Virus record (IMG/VR): IMGVR_UViG_3300046471_000044
Span: 1-24,621 of that record
DNA: 24,621 nucleotides
Source: a virus
Reading direction: 5' to 3' (one strand)
Below are positions 2,864-24,621 of this stretch, piece by piece. The notes below the pieces were generated by a model that searched no databases, was not told the DNA's origin, and saw only the letters and a list, made by a program, of their open reading frames with translations. The position numbers and the translations under genes are program-made. Position 1 is the first letter of the stretch, and every line of letters starts with the position of its first letter.

Positions 2864-4081
2864 TCAGCTCGCGCCACCGATGAAGTGCTTCACTGCACCG
2901 GTCTGGTCGATCAGCAGACCATCACCGCGGATAATCGCGCGGAACGTGGTCTGGTCGGTGTTGAACGAGTAGTCGTCGGAACGCTCGAAGCGGATACCCG
3001 CAACAATGCGAACCGCGTACGACGACAGGTCACCGAACAGAACCGACTTCGCACCAATGGCGGTCGCGGCAACGTTCGGGTCAGTCAGAACCGGCTTCGA
3101 CAGAAGCAAGTCAGGCTGCCCAGCAACGATCGACGGCTGCCACAGGTACGCACCAGTACCAGAACCCTCACGGAACTTGCGAATAACCGCAGCCGTCGAG
3201 TCCTTCATAAGCCACTGAGCAGCCGACTTGTTGCGGTACGGGGCAATGACCGAGTAGTACAGGTCGATCAGGTTGTCCAGCGTCGGAACGCCAGCAACCG
3301 ACGTAGCACCAGTAACACCAAGGGTCGACGAAACGGTGATACCAGTCGGCTCAGTCGAACCCGCACCAGTGATCAGCTTCGCACCGAAAGCGTTACCCAC
3401 GTTCTGTCCGACAACCCGGGCGAGGAAACCCTCAAGGTCGAACGCGCCGTCCTGAACAAGCTCCGAAGAAATCTGGACAAGCTGACCGAACTTGTACGCA
3501 CCAAGAGTCCGCTTACCGAACGCCGGGTCCGACTCGGCAAGCGCAGCGGCCTCAGCAACCGCCGCAGCCGCACCAAACGAAGTCGTGATCGGCACATCAA
3601 TGTTCTCGCCAGATGACGTGTTGAGAACCGTTGCGCCACCCGAAAGCAGCGTAGCGTTCTCGCGCAGGTGCTCCCAAATCTTCGAGTACATCGACGTGGG
3701 CACAGTGTTACCACCGGCCGTCGCGGTGCCCTTCGAAAGGTCACGAACCTCAGACGCAAACGGTTTCGCGTCGTAGAACTTCGCTTCACCAGCGAAGAAC
3801 TTACGCAGCTCGTCGTCACCCTCGGGCTTATCCGAACGCTCCGGACGCTGAGCGATCAGCGAACGAAGCGACTCCTCAGACGCCTTAGCGTTGCGCTCGT
3901 CCTCAATGTACTTATCAGCCTTAGCGCGCAGCGTTTCGAGATCGCTCGTCATCTTCTGATAAGAAACCTCCTCCTCTGCGGTAAGGTCGCGCTTCTCTTC
4001 GGCAGCGTGGTCAAGGAGTGCCTTGGCCTGCTCCCATGTGTTCGCCCGCTCTTCAAGCAGACGCTTTGCAATATCGCTCAT
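2864..4081 (-). CDS. Major capsid protein, HK97 fold
   Basis: 405 aa. Residues 1 to about 85 are charged and helical (coiled-coil-like, many Glu, Lys and Ala), as in the scaffolding delta domain of HK97-type capsids, which is removed by the protease encoded just upstream. The rest is the HK97-fold capsid domain: GTATAGGNTVPTSMYSKI after the N-terminal region, then NTSSGENIDVPI, a long mid helix and the C-terminal FGDLSSYAVRIVAGIRFERS followed by RGDGLLIDQTGAVKHF. Length and order (protease then capsid) are standard. The gene has its own leader with a terminator-like hairpin (4105-4135) and an SD GAGAGG, so it can be expressed at a level different from its neighbours. Confidence 0.96.
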   Translation of the reverse strand: MSDIAKRLLEERANTWEQAKALLDHAAEEKRDLTAEEEVSYQKMTSDLETLRAKADKYIEDERNAKASEESLRSLIAQRPERSDKPEGDDELRKFFAGEAKFYDAKPFASEVRDLSKGTATAGGNTVPTSMYSKIWEHLRENATLLSGGATVLNTSSGENIDVPITTSFGAAAAVAEAAALAESDPAFGKRTLGAYKFGQLVQISSELVQDGAFDLEGFLARVVGQNVGNAFGAKLITGAGSTEPTGITVSSTLGVTGATSVAGVPTLDNLIDLYYSVIAPYRNKSAAQWLMKDSTAAVIRKFREGSGTGAYLWQPSIVAGQPDLLLSKPVLTDPNVAATAIGAKSVLFGDLSSYAVRIVAGIRFERSDDYSFNTDQTTFRAIIRGDGLLIDQTGAVKHFIGGAS

Positions 4082-4104
4082 CGCGATGATTCCTCTCTAG
4101 GAAT

Positions 4105-4135
4105 GCAAAAAGCCCCGGCTGACTAGCCAGGGCTT
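4105..4135 (-). terminator. Rho-independent terminator-like hairpin before capsid
   Basis: On the minus strand a 10-bp stem (AAGCCCTGGC with GCCGGGGCTT, one T-G pair) and a 6-base loop are followed by TTTTT and then GCATTCCT. This is a good intrinsic terminator form between the protease stop (4181) and the capsid start (4081). It probably acts as a partial terminator or a 5' stabiliser of a capsid transcript. Confidence 0.75.
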
Positions 4136-4180
4136 GAGTGAAATGGGGGATTTGCGAGTGGTCGTCTACCTGCTCACGGT

Positions 4181-4873
4181 TTACTTCTGTTTCAGCAGCT
4201 CATGCTGCCGTTGCAACAGCGAAATGGTCGGGTGGGTGTCGCCCTGCCCGCCATCCGGATGGTGCTCTCCCCGCTTCTCGGCGGGCAGTTCAATAGGCTC
4301 GCCCAAGATCAGCGAGCGAAGTTCAGCAGTCGACGCATGTGAAACCTTCTCAACATCGACATCAAGCCGATCCGCAAGAGACCGCATACCGGCGGTCGAA
4401 TCGAGGTAGGCCGGACTATTCACCGGGGCCACATCCACAAGCTGAACTGAAAGAAGCGTGCGCAGAGGAAAGCCCTGCTCGGTAACCGACCACTCGTCCT
4501 CCAGCGTGTAGAACGCAAAAGACGAATAACGGACATCACCGCGCTTAGCAAGAACGGAAACATCCTTGCCGCTCGACGTGTCGGGAAGGTCAACCTCATA
4601 ACCAAGACCAATATCGTCGGGCACCAAACGCAACGTCTGCGCCTCGGTAGTGCCGAGCAGATAGTTGTCATCATGGTTATACCGACACAACACCGCCAAG
4701 TTGTCTCCCAGCGACTTGGCGAAAGCGCCAGGGGCAACCTGCTCAACGAAACCACCCAAGTTCTGTGAGTACTTGTTGAACGATGCGGCATACCCGAACA
4801 ACACACCGGGTCCGCTGCCGGCCGCCCGGTACTCGACCGGCTTCGCGATGTGCCGGCGCTCTAAATCAAGCAT
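4181..4873 (-). CDS. HK97-family prohead protease
   Basis: 230 aa serine protease (family U35) that cuts the delta domain off the capsid protein and itself during prohead maturation. The likely catalytic His is H67 in RYNHDDNYLLGT, and the Ser is S117 or S118 in DVRYSSFAFYTLED; the family motif VDVAPVNSPAY lies at about 147-156. The last 60 residues are a charged, low-complexity extension (ELPAEKRGEHHPDGGQGD) and a Gln/Leu-rich end, likely the part that packs into the prohead. The ATG is preceded by AGGAGACATA, 8 bases after the portal stop. The order portal, protease, capsid is classic. Confidence 0.93.
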   Translation of the reverse strand: MLDLERRHIAKPVEYRAAGSGPGVLFGYAASFNKYSQNLGGFVEQVAPGAFAKSLGDNLAVLCRYNHDDNYLLGTTEAQTLRLVPDDIGLGYEVDLPDTSSGKDVSVLAKRGDVRYSSFAFYTLEDEWSVTEQGFPLRTLLSVQLVDVAPVNSPAYLDSTAGMRSLADRLDVDVEKVSHASTAELRSLILGEPIELPAEKRGEHHPDGGQGDTHPTISLLQRQHELLKQK

Positions 4874-8102: not shown

Positions 8103-8651
8103 TCACCCTAAAAAAATTTGGGCGGACTGCATGCGTGCGAGGCGTCGACCTGTTTGCCATTCGATGATCGTTAGGCCGCCCTTGCTTGAGTTGCATCGCC
8201 TGCATGCCGGTGTGAGGTTGCCCTCATGGTTGGTGCCGCCTCGTACCAGTGGGATCACGTGGTCGATGGTGTCTGCCGGTTGATCGCAGTACGTACACGT
8301 TGTGTGTTGTGTCTTCCACCGATTGAGCATGCGCGCTCTCGCCTTGTTGCTCATGCCTGGTGCGTCACGCTCGCGGTGCCCGCGCACCACACGGTTGTCG
8401 TCTGCCGCACGGATCATGCGGCGTGCACCGTCAGCACGTGCGAAGCAGGTGAGACTGCAGTACTTGTAGCCCGTGCGTACACGCTTGAACTGTTTGTCGC
8501 AGTGTGCGCATGTCATGGTGTGCAGCTCGCGTACGGTGGGTCGCGCTCGTCTGCACGGGTGGCATCTAGCTTGACCTGCGGGTAGCGAGGTGGAGCCACG
8601 CCACATGAGTTCACCGCACTGGGAGCATGGCATGTCTTTGCGACGGGGCAT
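8103..8651 (-). CDS. HNH endonuclease next to terminase
   Basis: 182 aa. Two or more Cys pairs in the N-terminal half (C9/C12, C30/C33, C48/C51, C65/C69) suggest zinc-binding modules. The HNH domain is C-terminal: C119/C122, then D130-H131 in IDHVIPLVRGG, N145 in GNLTP, C150/C153 and N154. This is the form of HNH proteins that act with the terminase in DNA packaging of HK97-like cos phages, although a homing endonuclease role is also possible. SD AGGAGG overlaps the stop of the upstream HNH gene. The C-terminus runs through a seven-T stretch just before the stop. Confidence 0.85.
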   Translation of the reverse strand: MPRRKDMPCSQCGELMWRGSTSLPAGQARCHPCRRARPTVRELHTMTCAHCDKQFKRVRTGYKYCSLTCFARADGARRMIRAADDNRVVRGHRERDAPGMSNKARARMLNRWKTQHTTCTYCDQPADTIDHVIPLVRGGTNHEGNLTPACRRCNSSKGGLTIIEWQTGRRLARMQSAQIFLG

Positions 8652-8660
8652 CGTTGCCTC

Positions 8661-8954
8661 CTACCAGTTGGGGTCATGCCACCTGTGTGGTGGTGTGGCT
8701 CCCTTGCGTTTGGCGTTGGTGCGGCGTGCTCCGTCGCCCATGTTGCAGGCGGGGCATTCGGGTGCGAGGTTGGCGGGGTCTTCTGCTGGTCCGCCGTCTT
8801 CGAGTGCGATGATGTGGCCGATGGTCACTGAGTGTGGGTGCGGCCATGTGAGTGTGGGGTCTAGCCATTTGCCGCAGCGCCAGCAGTTGGTTGCGTTGGC
8901 TTTGATTTGTTTCTTGAGGCGTTCCCAGGGGCGACCGGTTCGACCGTGAGTCAT
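8661..8954 (-). CDS. Second small HNH endonuclease
   Basis: 97 aa. The whole protein is the HNH unit: C24/C27 (NCWRCGKWLD), G46-H47 in VTIGHIIALEDGG (Gly replaces the usual Asp before His), N62 in ANLAPEC, C67/C70 and N71 in ACNMGDG, then a basic tail NAKRKGATPP. Its ATG overlaps the stop of the hydrolase-like gene (ATGA) and its stop runs into the SD of the next HNH gene. Two consecutive HNH genes before the terminases are unusual but known; one may be the packaging partner and the other a homing enzyme. Confidence 0.85.
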   Translation of the reverse strand: MTHGRTGRPWERLKKQIKANATNCWRCGKWLDPTLTWPHPHSVTIGHIIALEDGGPAEDPANLAPECPACNMGDGARRTNAKRKGATPPHRWHDPNW

Positions 8955-9442
8955 GGCTTGTCGACCCAGTTGAAGTCGTAGAACACTTGCCCGATGTCAC
9001 CGGGTACGACAGCACCTGGTGGTCTGTGATCCCGGAACAGGTGTACGCCGGCGTGTTGGTATGCGCTGTCTGCGAGCTGGCTGCAGATCATGGTGTGTTG
9101 GTCGCTGATGATACGTTCGAGCCAACGGGGTGTTGCCCATCTGGTGAGGCGTGATACGCCGATCCAGAGGTAGGTGAGGACACCGTATGGGACTCCGACT
9201 TCTGCGAGCGCGTAGGCAATGATCTTGGCCTGTTGGCGGTCGGTTAGTGGGAAGTCGCTCCATGCCACATTGGTGAAGTGCGTGACGGGCAGTATCGCAA
9301 CGCCGGTTGTCTCTGCGCTGACTACGTTGTGTTCTGACACGCGCACGATCACATGGTTGAAGTCGGAGTGGGTGACTATGCGGATTAAACATGAGCTGAG
9401 CCCTGTGGTGCGTACGAGACCGATTTGGGCCAGCTCGTCCAT
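8951..9442 (-). CDS. Permuted NlpC/P60-like (YiiX/C92-type) cysteine hydrolase
   Basis: 163 aa. The order of catalytic residues is reversed relative to normal papain-like enzymes: H30 (HSDFNHVIVRV) and E44 come first and C120 (MICSQLADSAYQHAG) comes late, as in the circularly permuted NlpC/P60 group. The segment GVPYGVLTYLWIG and the C-terminal VPGDIGQVFYD also fit. Members of the group cut amide or lipid-amide bonds, so a role on cell wall or membrane lipids is possible. No signal peptide is visible. The gene sits between HNH genes directly before the terminases, an odd place for a lysis enzyme. The substrate cannot be told from sequence. Confidence 0.7.
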   Translation of the reverse strand: MDELAQIGLVRTTGLSSCLIRIVTHSDFNHVIVRVSEHNVVSAETTGVAILPVTHFTNVAWSDFPLTDRQQAKIIAYALAEVGVPYGVLTYLWIGVSRLTRWATPRWLERIISDQHTMICSQLADSAYQHAGVHLFRDHRPPGAVVPGDIGQVFYDFNWVDKP

Positions 9443-9443
9443 G

Positions 9444-9916
9444 TCACTCTTCTCGTTTGGCCTGGTATCGCTTCCGCATGTATTCGCGCATGTAATCTCG
9501 GCGTTGTTCGCGGAGACAGATCAGACACCCTCGCGGTTTGCCCTTAGACATGGCGATGTCGGTGATCGTGAGCACATGGCCCGCGGCACACTCTTTACCT
9601 GGTTCGTACATGTGGATGACTCGGTTGCCGCGTAGGATGTTCTCGTGATTGGTGACGGGTTCGAGGTGGTCCGGGTTCACGCACGCGGGTGTGCGGCACA
9701 GATGATCGAGCACTAGGCCTTCGGGGATCGCGCCCTTCGCGAGCACGTAGGCTACGCGGTGTGCTCGGTAGGTTTCGCTTAGTGATGCCGATGTTTCCGT
9801 ACCCGCCATGGTCCAGCGCTCCGGTCCACATCCAGCAGTCACCGGACTTATCTATACGGGATTCGAATCGGGTCGAGCTGCTCGGCAGTCAATGCGGGGA
9901 TGGGCAATGCGTACAT
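9444..9916 (-). pseudogene. HNH endonuclease broken by two single-base frameshifts
   Basis: A perfect AGGAG lies seven bases before ATG 9916, which begins MYALPIPALTAEQLD and then runs into a TAA after 22 codons. Dropping one C from the CCC at 9870-9872 moves to a frame reading RFESRIDKSGDCWMWTGALD, and dropping one A from the AAA (TTT on the plus strand, 9773-9775) moves to the third frame: TYRAHRVAYVLAKGAIPEG, LVLDHLCRTPACVNPDHLEP and a basic C-terminus. Joined, this is a full homing-type HNH enzyme (HNH_3 type) with the N-terminal WTG..GYG motif, DH and N..H motifs. Only the last frame is long enough to be called as a 132-aa gene, and it has no good start. Either a decaying mobile gene or sequence errors. 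Confidence 0.85.
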
Positions 9917-18232: not shown

Positions 18233-18957
18233 TCGAGTGCCTTTCTTGTGTCCTGTTCCATCAACATGCGACCCTGCTCCAACACATCCACCAACTGATC
18301 CTCCTTCGACCGACGACCCACAACAGGAACCTTCGCGTTCCCCAACCACATCCGAAACGCAGCATCCCAATCCCGTTGACGCCGATCGTTCGCAGCCGCA
18401 TGCGCACGAAACTGTGCCTCCTCATGCGGGCCGTTCACACCACGTGTTGTGGCGTATGCAACATGGGATGGTTTCGGTTCCCAGTCGTCGGGGAGAGAGG
18501 TTTCTGGTTTGCGTGCGCCTCTCTTCTTCGTAGAAGAAGAGTTATCTTCTCTTCTCTTCTCTTTGCCATCGTTTGCTATCGTTTTGCCATCGGGATGCCA
18601 TCGGTTTGCCGCACCCTTGCTACCCGCCTCGGACCGTTTTATGCGCAGATCAGCCCTTTTCTCTTCGATTTCAGCGCGCGAGGGGTTGTGTTCCAGGAAG
18701 TCGTGGATCTCCCAACCACGGTCAACGCGCACCCAAGAGGGCAAATCGGGGTCGTTGTTAGACAGTTCGTCCGCTACCTTCTGACCCCACCGTTTCAACA
18801 CAACCCGTTCGTCGATCACCCCGTCATTTGTCATGCGTCGGGAGTAGAACAACGCTTCGAAGAACGCGCGGAACGCAGCATCGGATAGGCCGATGATCTT
18901 CGGGTGTTCGTCAATCTCGATTGAAATTTCCGCGTACAACCGACTGTCCTTAGCCAC
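18229..18957 (-). CDS. Replication initiation-like protein (helix-turn-helix)
   Basis: 242 aa. GTG 18957 is chosen because AGGAGG is eight bases upstream; the ATG at 18963 would be only two bases from it. Residues 1 to about 90: YAEISIEIDEHPKIIGLSDA, AFRAFFEALFYSRRMTNDGV, then a helix-turn-helix region up to RGWEIHDFLEHN. A charged low-complexity linker follows (SKGAANRWHPDGKTIANDGK and many Lys/Arg/Glu/Ser). The C-terminal domain (LPDDWEPKPSHVAYATTRGV, QRDWDAAFRMWLGNA) is typical of phage replisome organisers. It probably binds the phage origin and recruits the helicase loader. Confidence 0.75.
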   Translation of the reverse strand: MAKDSRLYAEISIEIDEHPKIIGLSDAAFRAFFEALFYSRRMTNDGVIDERVVLKRWGQKVADELSNNDPDLPSWVRVDRGWEIHDFLEHNPSRAEIEEKRADLRIKRSEAGSKGAANRWHPDGKTIANDGKEKRREDNSSSTKKRGARKPETSLPDDWEPKPSHVAYATTRGVNGPHEEAQFRAHAAANDRRQRDWDAAFRMWLGNAKVPVVGRRSKEDQLVDVLEQGRMLMEQDTRKALE

Positions 18958-23907: not shown

Positions 23908-24621
23908 TCACAGCTCGTTCCCGTTGATATCAACCTCCGCGAGAACCCGCGCCGACTTCGCCTTCAACTTCGGCGCACCCTGCGTATTCCCGTCAATTAT
24001 CGACAGTTCCGACACCTTCACCGCCACCTTCAAAAACCGGGTAGCCGCATCGAAGTAGTACTGGGCGTGAACGGGGGTTGGTGAGAAATGCAGACCAGAC
24101 CCGCAGAAATCACCAGGTGCCCAATTCGGGTCCGTCACAGTCTCACCGACCGGATACGCGAACCCGCGACCAGACTTCAAATCCTTGTCAACAGCTTTGT
24201 AGACGATAAACTCACGAGCCTTCCCCGCGCCCACCGTTTCGACGCCGTGATATTTGCGCCACCCCTTCGGATCGGTTCGATCGATCGCTGCCACGTTGAT
24301 CACCACGCCCCCGTCGGCTGTCGCCCGCGACGAGTGGAGGTGGACTGCGACGTATGGGGAAGCCGTCACCGTAGACGAGCCGTAAGCCCTCACCGTAGAC
24401 GAGCCGTAAGCCGTCACCGTAGACGAGTCGGAAGCCGTCACCGTAGACGAGTCGTAAGCCGTCACCGTAGACGAGCCGGAAGCCCTCACCGTAGACGAGT
24501 CGGAAGCCCTCACCGTAGACGAGCCGTAAGCCCTCACCGTAGACGAGTCGGAAGCCCTCACCGTAGACGAGCCGTACTCCGTCACCGGCGACGAGTCGTA
24601 AGCCGTCACCGTAGACGAGGC
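23908..24621 (-). CDS. DUF7666-like protein with octapeptide repeats, partial
   Basis: At least 237 aa; the frame runs off the right edge, so the true start is missing. The first 85 or so visible residues are tandem 8-aa repeats (SSTV-T/R-A-Y/S-G/D). Val and Ala fall at fixed positions, as in a right-handed beta-helix or solenoid. After VAVHLHSSRATADGGVVINV comes a globular part resembling DUF7666: FIVYKAVDKDLKSGRGFAYP, CGSGLHFSPTPVHAQYYFDA, FLKVAVKVSELSIIDGNT and a last strand SARVLAEVDINGNEL. Proteins of this design are frequent in actinobacterial phages; function is unknown, perhaps structural or ligand-binding. Confidence 0.75.
   Translation of the reverse strand, partial: ASSTVTAYDSSPVTEYGSSTVRASDSSTVRAYGSSTVRASDSSTVRASGSSTVTAYDSSTVTASDSSTVTAYGSSTVRAYGSSTVTASPYVAVHLHSSRATADGGVVINVAAIDRTDPKGWRKYHGVETVGAGKAREFIVYKAVDKDLKSGRGFAYPVGETVTDPNWAPGDFCGSGLHFSPTPVHAQYYFDAATRFLKVAVKVSELSIIDGNTQGAPKLKAKSARVLAEVDINGNEL
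24355..24621 (-). repeat. 24-bp tandem repeat coding for octapeptides
   Basis: Eleven units of the form TCGTCTACGGTG-ASG-GCT-TMC-GRC are visible, continuing past the edge. The repeat is in frame (8 codons). Changes are almost confined to three codons: ACG/AGG (Thr/Arg), TAC/TCC (Tyr/Ser), GGC/GAC (Gly/Asp). Two units near the edge deviate (CCG for ACG; GAG TAC). Confidence 0.95.

Follow-up and report, generated by a model that had tools for sequence, protein, structure and literature searches.

The window, that is, the whole stretch of viral DNA that was analysed (24,621 bases), ends inside a gene on the minus strand. The respective open reading frame (23908..24621; 237 residues plus stop, phrog_15773 family) has lost its 5' end at the contig end and encodes, from its N-terminal side onwards, an octapeptide array of eleven tandem 24-bp units (24358..24621, minus strand; delimited by TRF and in-phase translation, and cut by the contig end), a linker from the array to the domain (24208..24357, minus strand; delimited by alignments), including a PYVAVHLHS segment conserved in relatives, and a DUF7666 domain (PF24703; 23926..24207, minus strand) assigned by profile search, hhalign and AlphaFold. 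The Pfam model matched the domain with E 5.4e-12 and 46.5 bits, against a curated cut-off of 27, and with 48.5 bits in a second search, and what had been proposed earlier as fusion to a DUF7666-like domain is thus a fusion to DUF7666 itself. Genes for Dam, a DUF3799 nuclease, SSB and an exonuclease lie on the same strand of the window. Elsewhere, the array gene has RecT as a neighbour in MW202485 and WhiB near Che8 gp59, and bbp36 of BPP-1 adjoins exonuclease and ssDNA-binding genes; no tail genes were found beside the array gene in the annotated neighbourhoods examined (window, BPP-1, MW202485 and Che8).

The array was reported by TRF at 24360-24619 (10.8 copies, 89% matches, score 394), inside the open frame, as expected from the in-frame 24-bp tandem repeat claimed in the earlier note. 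Read in phase, the order of the units is ASSTVTAY, DSSPVTEY, GSSTVRAS, DSSTVRAY, GSSTVRAS, DSSTVRAS, GSSTVTAY, DSSTVTAS, DSSTVTAY, GSSTVRAY and GSSTVTAS, with the pattern [GD]SSTV[TR]A[YS] in 10 of the 11 units when the first one, which begins with A, is counted. A degenerate 24-mer for the unit (at most three mismatches) matched 10 times, always within the array and with 0 matches expected by chance, and detected no copy of the unit anywhere else in the 24,621-base window. The three switch codons are ACG/AGG (T/R), TAC/TCC (Y/S) and GGC/GAC (G/D), each pair differing by a single change at the second codon position, and six of the eight possible combinations were seen among the eight units scored; both the single-base switches and their recombination in various combinations were therefore borne out. 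The constancy of SSTV.A with three variable codons, which had also been claimed, was found in 10 of the 11 units and broken solely by DSSPVTEY (24574..24597, minus strand), which differs from the other units by T to P, A to E and one silent change and, as the second unit from the contig end, could be either a real variant or an end-of-contig error. Equally unforeseen was residue 1 of the outermost unit, at the very end of the contig, which is A (GCC) and not G or D.

Since the contig ends inside the array, the count of eleven units is a lower bound. Contig ends at most 1 kb from the locus were found on the array side in 30 of the 80 viral loci and on the other side in 2 (p 2.5e-7), and in the bacterial genome loci the respective values were 8 of 11 and 0 of 11. 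Because contigs break on the array side, the window most likely stops at an assembly break within its array, and such arrays explain a recurrent assembly break of viral metagenomes, in which contigs stop inside the array.

Relatives were collected from phages, viral metagenomes and bacteria. In the phage collection, 31 records were matched by tblastn, mostly mycobacteriophages and all annotated as hypothetical; two scans of IMG/VR yielded 13 and 80 viral loci, respectively, and a scan of bacterial genomes with a 10-row alignment yielded 11 loci. Among the matches listed, the array lies directly upstream of DUF7666 in nearly all of the 80 viral loci, and the product of complete genes begins with a cap, about 40 residues long (VRTQAELDKAIADKVDWIEIRSPAGVWLEV in one), followed by the array and the DUF7666 domain. 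The octapeptide alphabets of relatives include SSTV[TR]A[YCS][DG], SATV[TR]A[YS][DG], SSHV[EV]A[WR][DGE] and SAQV[TR]A[YS][DG]. Arrays of 30-bp decapeptide units, for example SSQPHV[EV]A[WR][GE], equivalent to the octapeptide plus two extra residues, also adjoin DUF7666 (L076, L083, L084, L092, L096, L097, L098 and L103-L106). Octapeptide arrays without DUF7666 were detected in L011, a Porphyromonas phage and Gordonia phage BillDoor, and in degenerate form in microviruses.

Among the mycobacteriophages, Che8 gp59, Redi gp44, SkinnyPete gp38 and Squirty gp51 have the cap, octapeptides and DUF7666 and show 42-43% identity to the window; Che8 gp59 and its kin, annotated as hypothetical, use the alphabet SA[HR]V[EV]A[WR..][GD], and some have only 3-4 units. 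A second type of repeat, that of Tweety gp54 and Che8 gp57, resembles the window in having in-frame repeats that differ in number between close phages, with third codon positions invariant and first and second ones variable (PMC2884959), whereas its units are tetrapeptides with two fixed alanines and no DUF7666 match. Che8 gp57 (L015:4668-5531), the homologue of Tweety gp54 with an AAGS/AAWS-type tetrapeptide array, lies two genes from gp59.

The Tweety gp54 repeat was compared by Pham et al. with variable region 2 (VR2), a 24-bp element in the gene bbp36 of Bordetella phages (PMC2884959); the VR2 repeat was described by Liu et al. 2004, as cited in PMC2884959, and the variation of bbp36, which is reported as non-essential, apparently does not track host tropism (PMC2884959). 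Bbp36 was found to carry DUF7666 (E 1.7e-10) ahead of its array of GTATAG plus YR/ES/NY/EK (bbp36 of BPP-1, L020:8777-9706). The numbers of units in BPP-1, BMP-1, BIP-1 and vB_BbrP_003 are 14, about 20, 20 and 7, respectively (Bordetella loci L020, L025, L026 and L027; BMP-1 record AY526908), with a different order of units and nearly identical protein ends. Like the window, Bbp36 combines DUF7666 and an in-frame 24-bp octapeptide array in one protein with DNA-metabolism surroundings. The two differ in domain order, the array following the domain in Bbp36 and coming before it in the window and its Che8-type relatives, and in the units, which vary by multi-base two-residue cassettes in Bbp36 and by single-base switches at three positions in the window. 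As Bbp36 consists of DUF7666 and a variable array, the window belongs with an already described phenomenon.

Turnover of the arrays was estimated from near relatives. The nearest relatives of the window, L028 and L029, are 96.6% identical in the DNA of the domain and agree at 111 of 113 bases of the cap, but their arrays contain 23 and 16 units, respectively, in unrelated order. Similarly, the domains of L040 and L043 are 100% identical but their arrays are not, a single unit distinguishes L036 from L038, and the arrays of Redi, Rebel and Raymond7 differ although these phages are 99.6-99.9% identical over 2.9 kb. The gain, loss and rearrangement of units therefore proceed faster than change in the flanking sequence. 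For the window phage itself, no near-identical copy was found, and the variation in number and order is that observed in its relatives. The comparison of repeat number and order among relatives had been named beforehand as a possible refutation of the earlier note; both were found to differ, and the claim stood. Recombination within the array is the simplest explanation for the differences in unit number and order among near relatives, which supports in part the proposal that unequal crossing-over is the source of new combinations; on its own, unequal crossing-over is insufficient in view of the shortage of silent changes described below.

The alphabets of the arrays were then mapped onto a tree built from 60 domains. 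The T/R alphabet required 15 changes, compared with a shuffled mean of 15.8, and is thus unclustered, and all alphabet labels together required 31 changes against 36.3 for shuffled ones, a slight clustering. The window (T/R) groups with L028 and L029 (E/V) with a support of 99/88. As the labels were obtained with a coarse regular expression that left 13 rows unlabelled, the tree shows no more than a near lack of clustering by alphabet, and does not give the number of switches; to this extent the array alphabet is independent of the phylogeny of the DUF7666 domain.

For the determination of variation within arrays, 51 arrays with at least six units each were used. Variation sits at codons 5, 7 and 8 of the unit, and codons 1, 4 and 6 (residues S, V and A) show none, which is due in part to the search pattern that demands them. 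The piN/piS ratio within these arrays is 7.2. At the three switch codons, the single-base alternatives comprise 149 amino-acid changes and 2 silent ones, with 23% silent expected, and the changes are concentrated at second codon positions, i.e. at nucleotides 14, 20 and 23 of the unit. The shortage of silent alternatives gives a binomial p of 3e-15, a naive value because the alternatives are made non-independent by the common ancestry of arrays and the copying of units. In any one array, variation is restricted to two or three positions and nearly always consists of amino-acid switches by a single base. From phage to phage, silent differences are seen in the fixed codons, e.g. TCG, TCC and AGC for the first serine; therefore every array has been homogenised on its own with the switches retained. 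The combinations are mixed, typically 4-7 of the eight being present per array, and linkage between switches inside units is weak, yet above that of shuffles. No serial correlation of units was found at lags 1-8, so that neither 16- nor 24-residue coils are visible in the sequence. Unequal crossing-over alone is insufficient for this pattern, because it makes the units of an array uniform and does not distinguish silent from amino-acid changes; that hardly any alternative is silent (2 of 151) requires a further factor, either selection for diversity or targeted mutation. Diversity-maintaining selection on the arrays is well supported.

Structure prediction was carried out by AlphaFold for the domain and for a full-length relative. 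The DUF7666 domain, modelled with 60 relatives, reached a pLDDT of 91.8, and its VIA-align neighbours were mostly members of the ADP-ribosyltransferase (ART) superfamily (KptA/Tpt1, Arr, PARPs, tankyrases and the anti-CRISPR 6kyf) with Z from 4.2 to 7.2; the corresponding Foldseek matches were weak (best E 0.06), and no relative with a solved structure was convincing by sequence for the protein or the domain profile. As these Z values are below 8, where common arrangements also score, an ADP-ribosyltransferase-like fold of DUF7666 is suggested rather than shown. K55 and H91 are invariant and E142 is nearly invariant in the DUF7666 alignment, in the same order as the ART triad, and from the strand order K55/H91/E142 may be the counterpart of the catalytic triad. 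The strand-1 residue of DUF7666 is the invariant K, in contrast to H or R in ADP-ribosyltransferases (Tpt1/KptA, Arr, PARPs and AcrIF11), and bbp36 is by eye without the E of the K/H/E set. The CGxGLHF motif of DUF7666 is similar to the GxGIYF motif of PARPs.

In the model of the full-length relative L004, a cap helix precedes the strands and each octapeptide forms one 5-residue strand, T-V-x-A-x, followed by the turn [DG]SS. From the strand alternation, V and A would point inside and positions 5 and 7 outward, with D/G in the turn. The structural neighbours of this model are right-handed parallel beta-helices with Z 8-11, to which residues 1-173 align at about 3 Angstrom, and three octapeptides per coil would fit a beta-helix. 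The proposed beta-solenoid, for which an AlphaFold prediction had been put forward as a check, is favoured by one strand per octapeptide and by these neighbours, and is weakened by the pLDDT of the array, only about 54-81; the array is thus predicted with moderate confidence to fold as a right-handed beta-helix. Pectate lyases, alginate lyase and tailspikes would have the parallel beta-helix in common with it, the array being distinguished by its nearly exact octapeptide repeat.

Against viral structures, the best Foldseek matches of the domain were RIIB proteins (E 1e-6, TM about 0.6), followed by other DUF7666 proteins, giant-virus ankyrin-repeat proteins and a pentapeptide protein; the DUF7666 domain thus recurs on different repeat scaffolds. 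When the 60-row DUF7666 profile was aligned by hhalign with T4 RIIB alone (L113, P0002), residues 201-289 were matched with a probability of 90 and E 1.6e-6, and all decoys (60 shuffles, the reverse and 15 window proteins) remained below 1; the Pfam DUF7666 model did not detect T4 RIIB. By eye, T4 RIIB keeps the K, H and E of the conserved DUF7666 motifs (YAWK, CSRGLH and YEVV). DUF7666 and the C-terminal domain of T4 RIIB are related, and the homology is limited to that domain: the N-terminus of T4 RIIB is HTH-like, and the protein lacks an octapeptide array, whereas DUF7666 relatives have a cap and octapeptides (the window itself being cut off). RIIA and RIIB counteract RexAB exclusion of lambda lysogens, and divergent rII modules do likewise (PMC9391042, PMC11879866); in one review RIIB is treated as a transcription factor (PMC7824862). 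The literature searched contained no paper on DUF7666, none linking VR2, RIIB and DUF7666, and none calling RIIB an ART, and to our knowledge, within that literature, the links between VR2, DUF7666 and RIIB and the family-wide asymmetry between silent and amino-acid changes are new.

The explanation that we prefer, at about even chances, is that the locus encodes a recombining, diversity-selected beta-helix arm attached to an RIIB-homologous DUF7666 domain, as an early gene product with a putative role in counter-defence or host manipulation. The phage gene of which the window holds the 3' part would then belong to the early (DNA-metabolism) region, and the complete product would consist of a short N-terminal cap, the beta-helix array and the C-terminal DUF7666 domain. 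Units would be shuffled by recombination between them (unequal crossing-over, conversion and slippage), and selection would keep several surface states alive. The least certain steps are that the protein may act inside the host early in infection, in an RIIB-like manner, and that the variable arm may set or hide contacts with a host partner, with DUF7666 as the effector or docking part. The random order of units does not favour recognition of one fixed target, and slightly favours an arm that evades, or only needs a mixed composition, over one that recognises. The broader version, in which an RIIB-related, ART-like effector on a recombining beta-helix arm is aimed at intracellular host immunity, not at receptors, in many lineages, appears doubtful. 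If diversity-maintaining selection acts on the arrays, they mark a fast-changing host interaction inside the cell, and the broader version, if true, would represent a second general way, besides retroelements, to hold a phage protein surface hypervariable. VR2 (2004) and T4 rII (1950s) now fall into a single domain family, together with dozens of phages that bear arrays, which opens comparative tests for each.

The random order and the many combinations present per array are equally expected if the arm is a spacer or scaffold and the mixture merely balances its composition, a uniform array being too charged, sticky or aggregation-prone and the order carrying no information. This balancing would also explain the intermediate frequencies and the rapid turnover of order, and it agrees with a net charge near zero (mean -0.16 per unit) and with the finding that, from array to array, positive charges per unit correlate weakly with negative ones (rho 0.39, p 0.01). 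However, like charges co-occur within units beyond shuffles (variance 0.751 against 0.633, sd 0.031), so that local charge balancing was rejected, the variance of unit charge being above that of shuffles and not below it; L046 is almost uniform, with 34 units of three types, so that uniformity is tolerated; and the Y/S, W/R and Y/C switches at intermediate frequency are not obviously explained. Balancing of composition is on the whole a tentative and rather improbable reading. Less probable still, and unlikely, is neutral slippage of expendable arrays, which would drift in unit number, order and letters, with variation at the three positions only because change is tolerated there. The non-essential nature reported for bbp36 (PMC2884959) and the arrays reduced to 3-4 units (L065 and L067) or almost none (L058 and L059) are consistent with it, whereas drift predicts silent changes at least as often as amino-acid ones, against the 2 of 151 seen and the piN/piS of 7.2, and S, V and A are invariant in the scored arrays, partly by the defining search pattern.

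Switches written by a diversity-generating retroelement or another site-directed mutator would account for the clustering at the second codon positions, and a retroelement is present in the VR2-bearing Bordetella phages as well, but no template repeat was found elsewhere in the window, which is a fragment, the switch bases include C/G, A/T and C/T and not adenine only, and the alphabets differ from phage to phage; such targeted mutagenesis is very unlikely. Hardly more can be said for a virion part with octapeptides like those of the C-terminal triple-stranded beta-helix of T4 gp5, a trimeric needle. That gp5C is also made of octapeptides and that Pfam Gp5_trimer_C (PF22178) gave weak matches (E 0.0004-0.03) speak for it, but the matches fall below the cut-off of 30.9 bits (window 17.3, best 20.9), the gene lies among DNA-metabolism genes and not tail genes, and the structural neighbours listed are single-chain right-handed beta-helices. 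Bacterial ice nucleation proteins contain a 16-residue repeat, AGYGSTQTAGEESSLT, with an outward TxT (PMC9418140), and stacked arginines in R-coils. Both features speak for an ice-nucleation-like solenoid assembling into fibres, and the bbp36-like protein of Burkholderia phage Mica was annotated by its depositors as 'ice nucleation protein'. Nevertheless, letter permutations of the octapeptide against the published consensus gave P 0.15-0.21 for the window type and P 0.04 for the bbp36 type, no Pfam ice-nucleation match was obtained, and we regard this assembly as highly improbable.

Several minor observations were made on related loci and on the window. In L058 and L059 (about 3695-4390), the array of the DUF7666 gene is shrunk to nearly nothing, with one partial unit. 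Porphyromonas phage 005b (L017:4644-5417), without DUF7666, has an array built from two fully linked types of unit, SATVRAWG and SATVEACD, which are also silently marked; a length polymorphism between 005a and 005b, which are 36 bases apart, was considered and rejected, because 005a reads N over the array. In the microvirus PQ007169 (5.4 kb; L022:3354-3908), a degenerate octapeptide array lies between the genes for the replication initiator and the pilot protein. In the window, a row of short open reading frames on the minus strand at 8103-9842 is HNH-type endonuclease-like by eye, and an 11-bp tandem repeat of 4.5 copies (TRF score 63) is located at 18562-18610 within a gene region.
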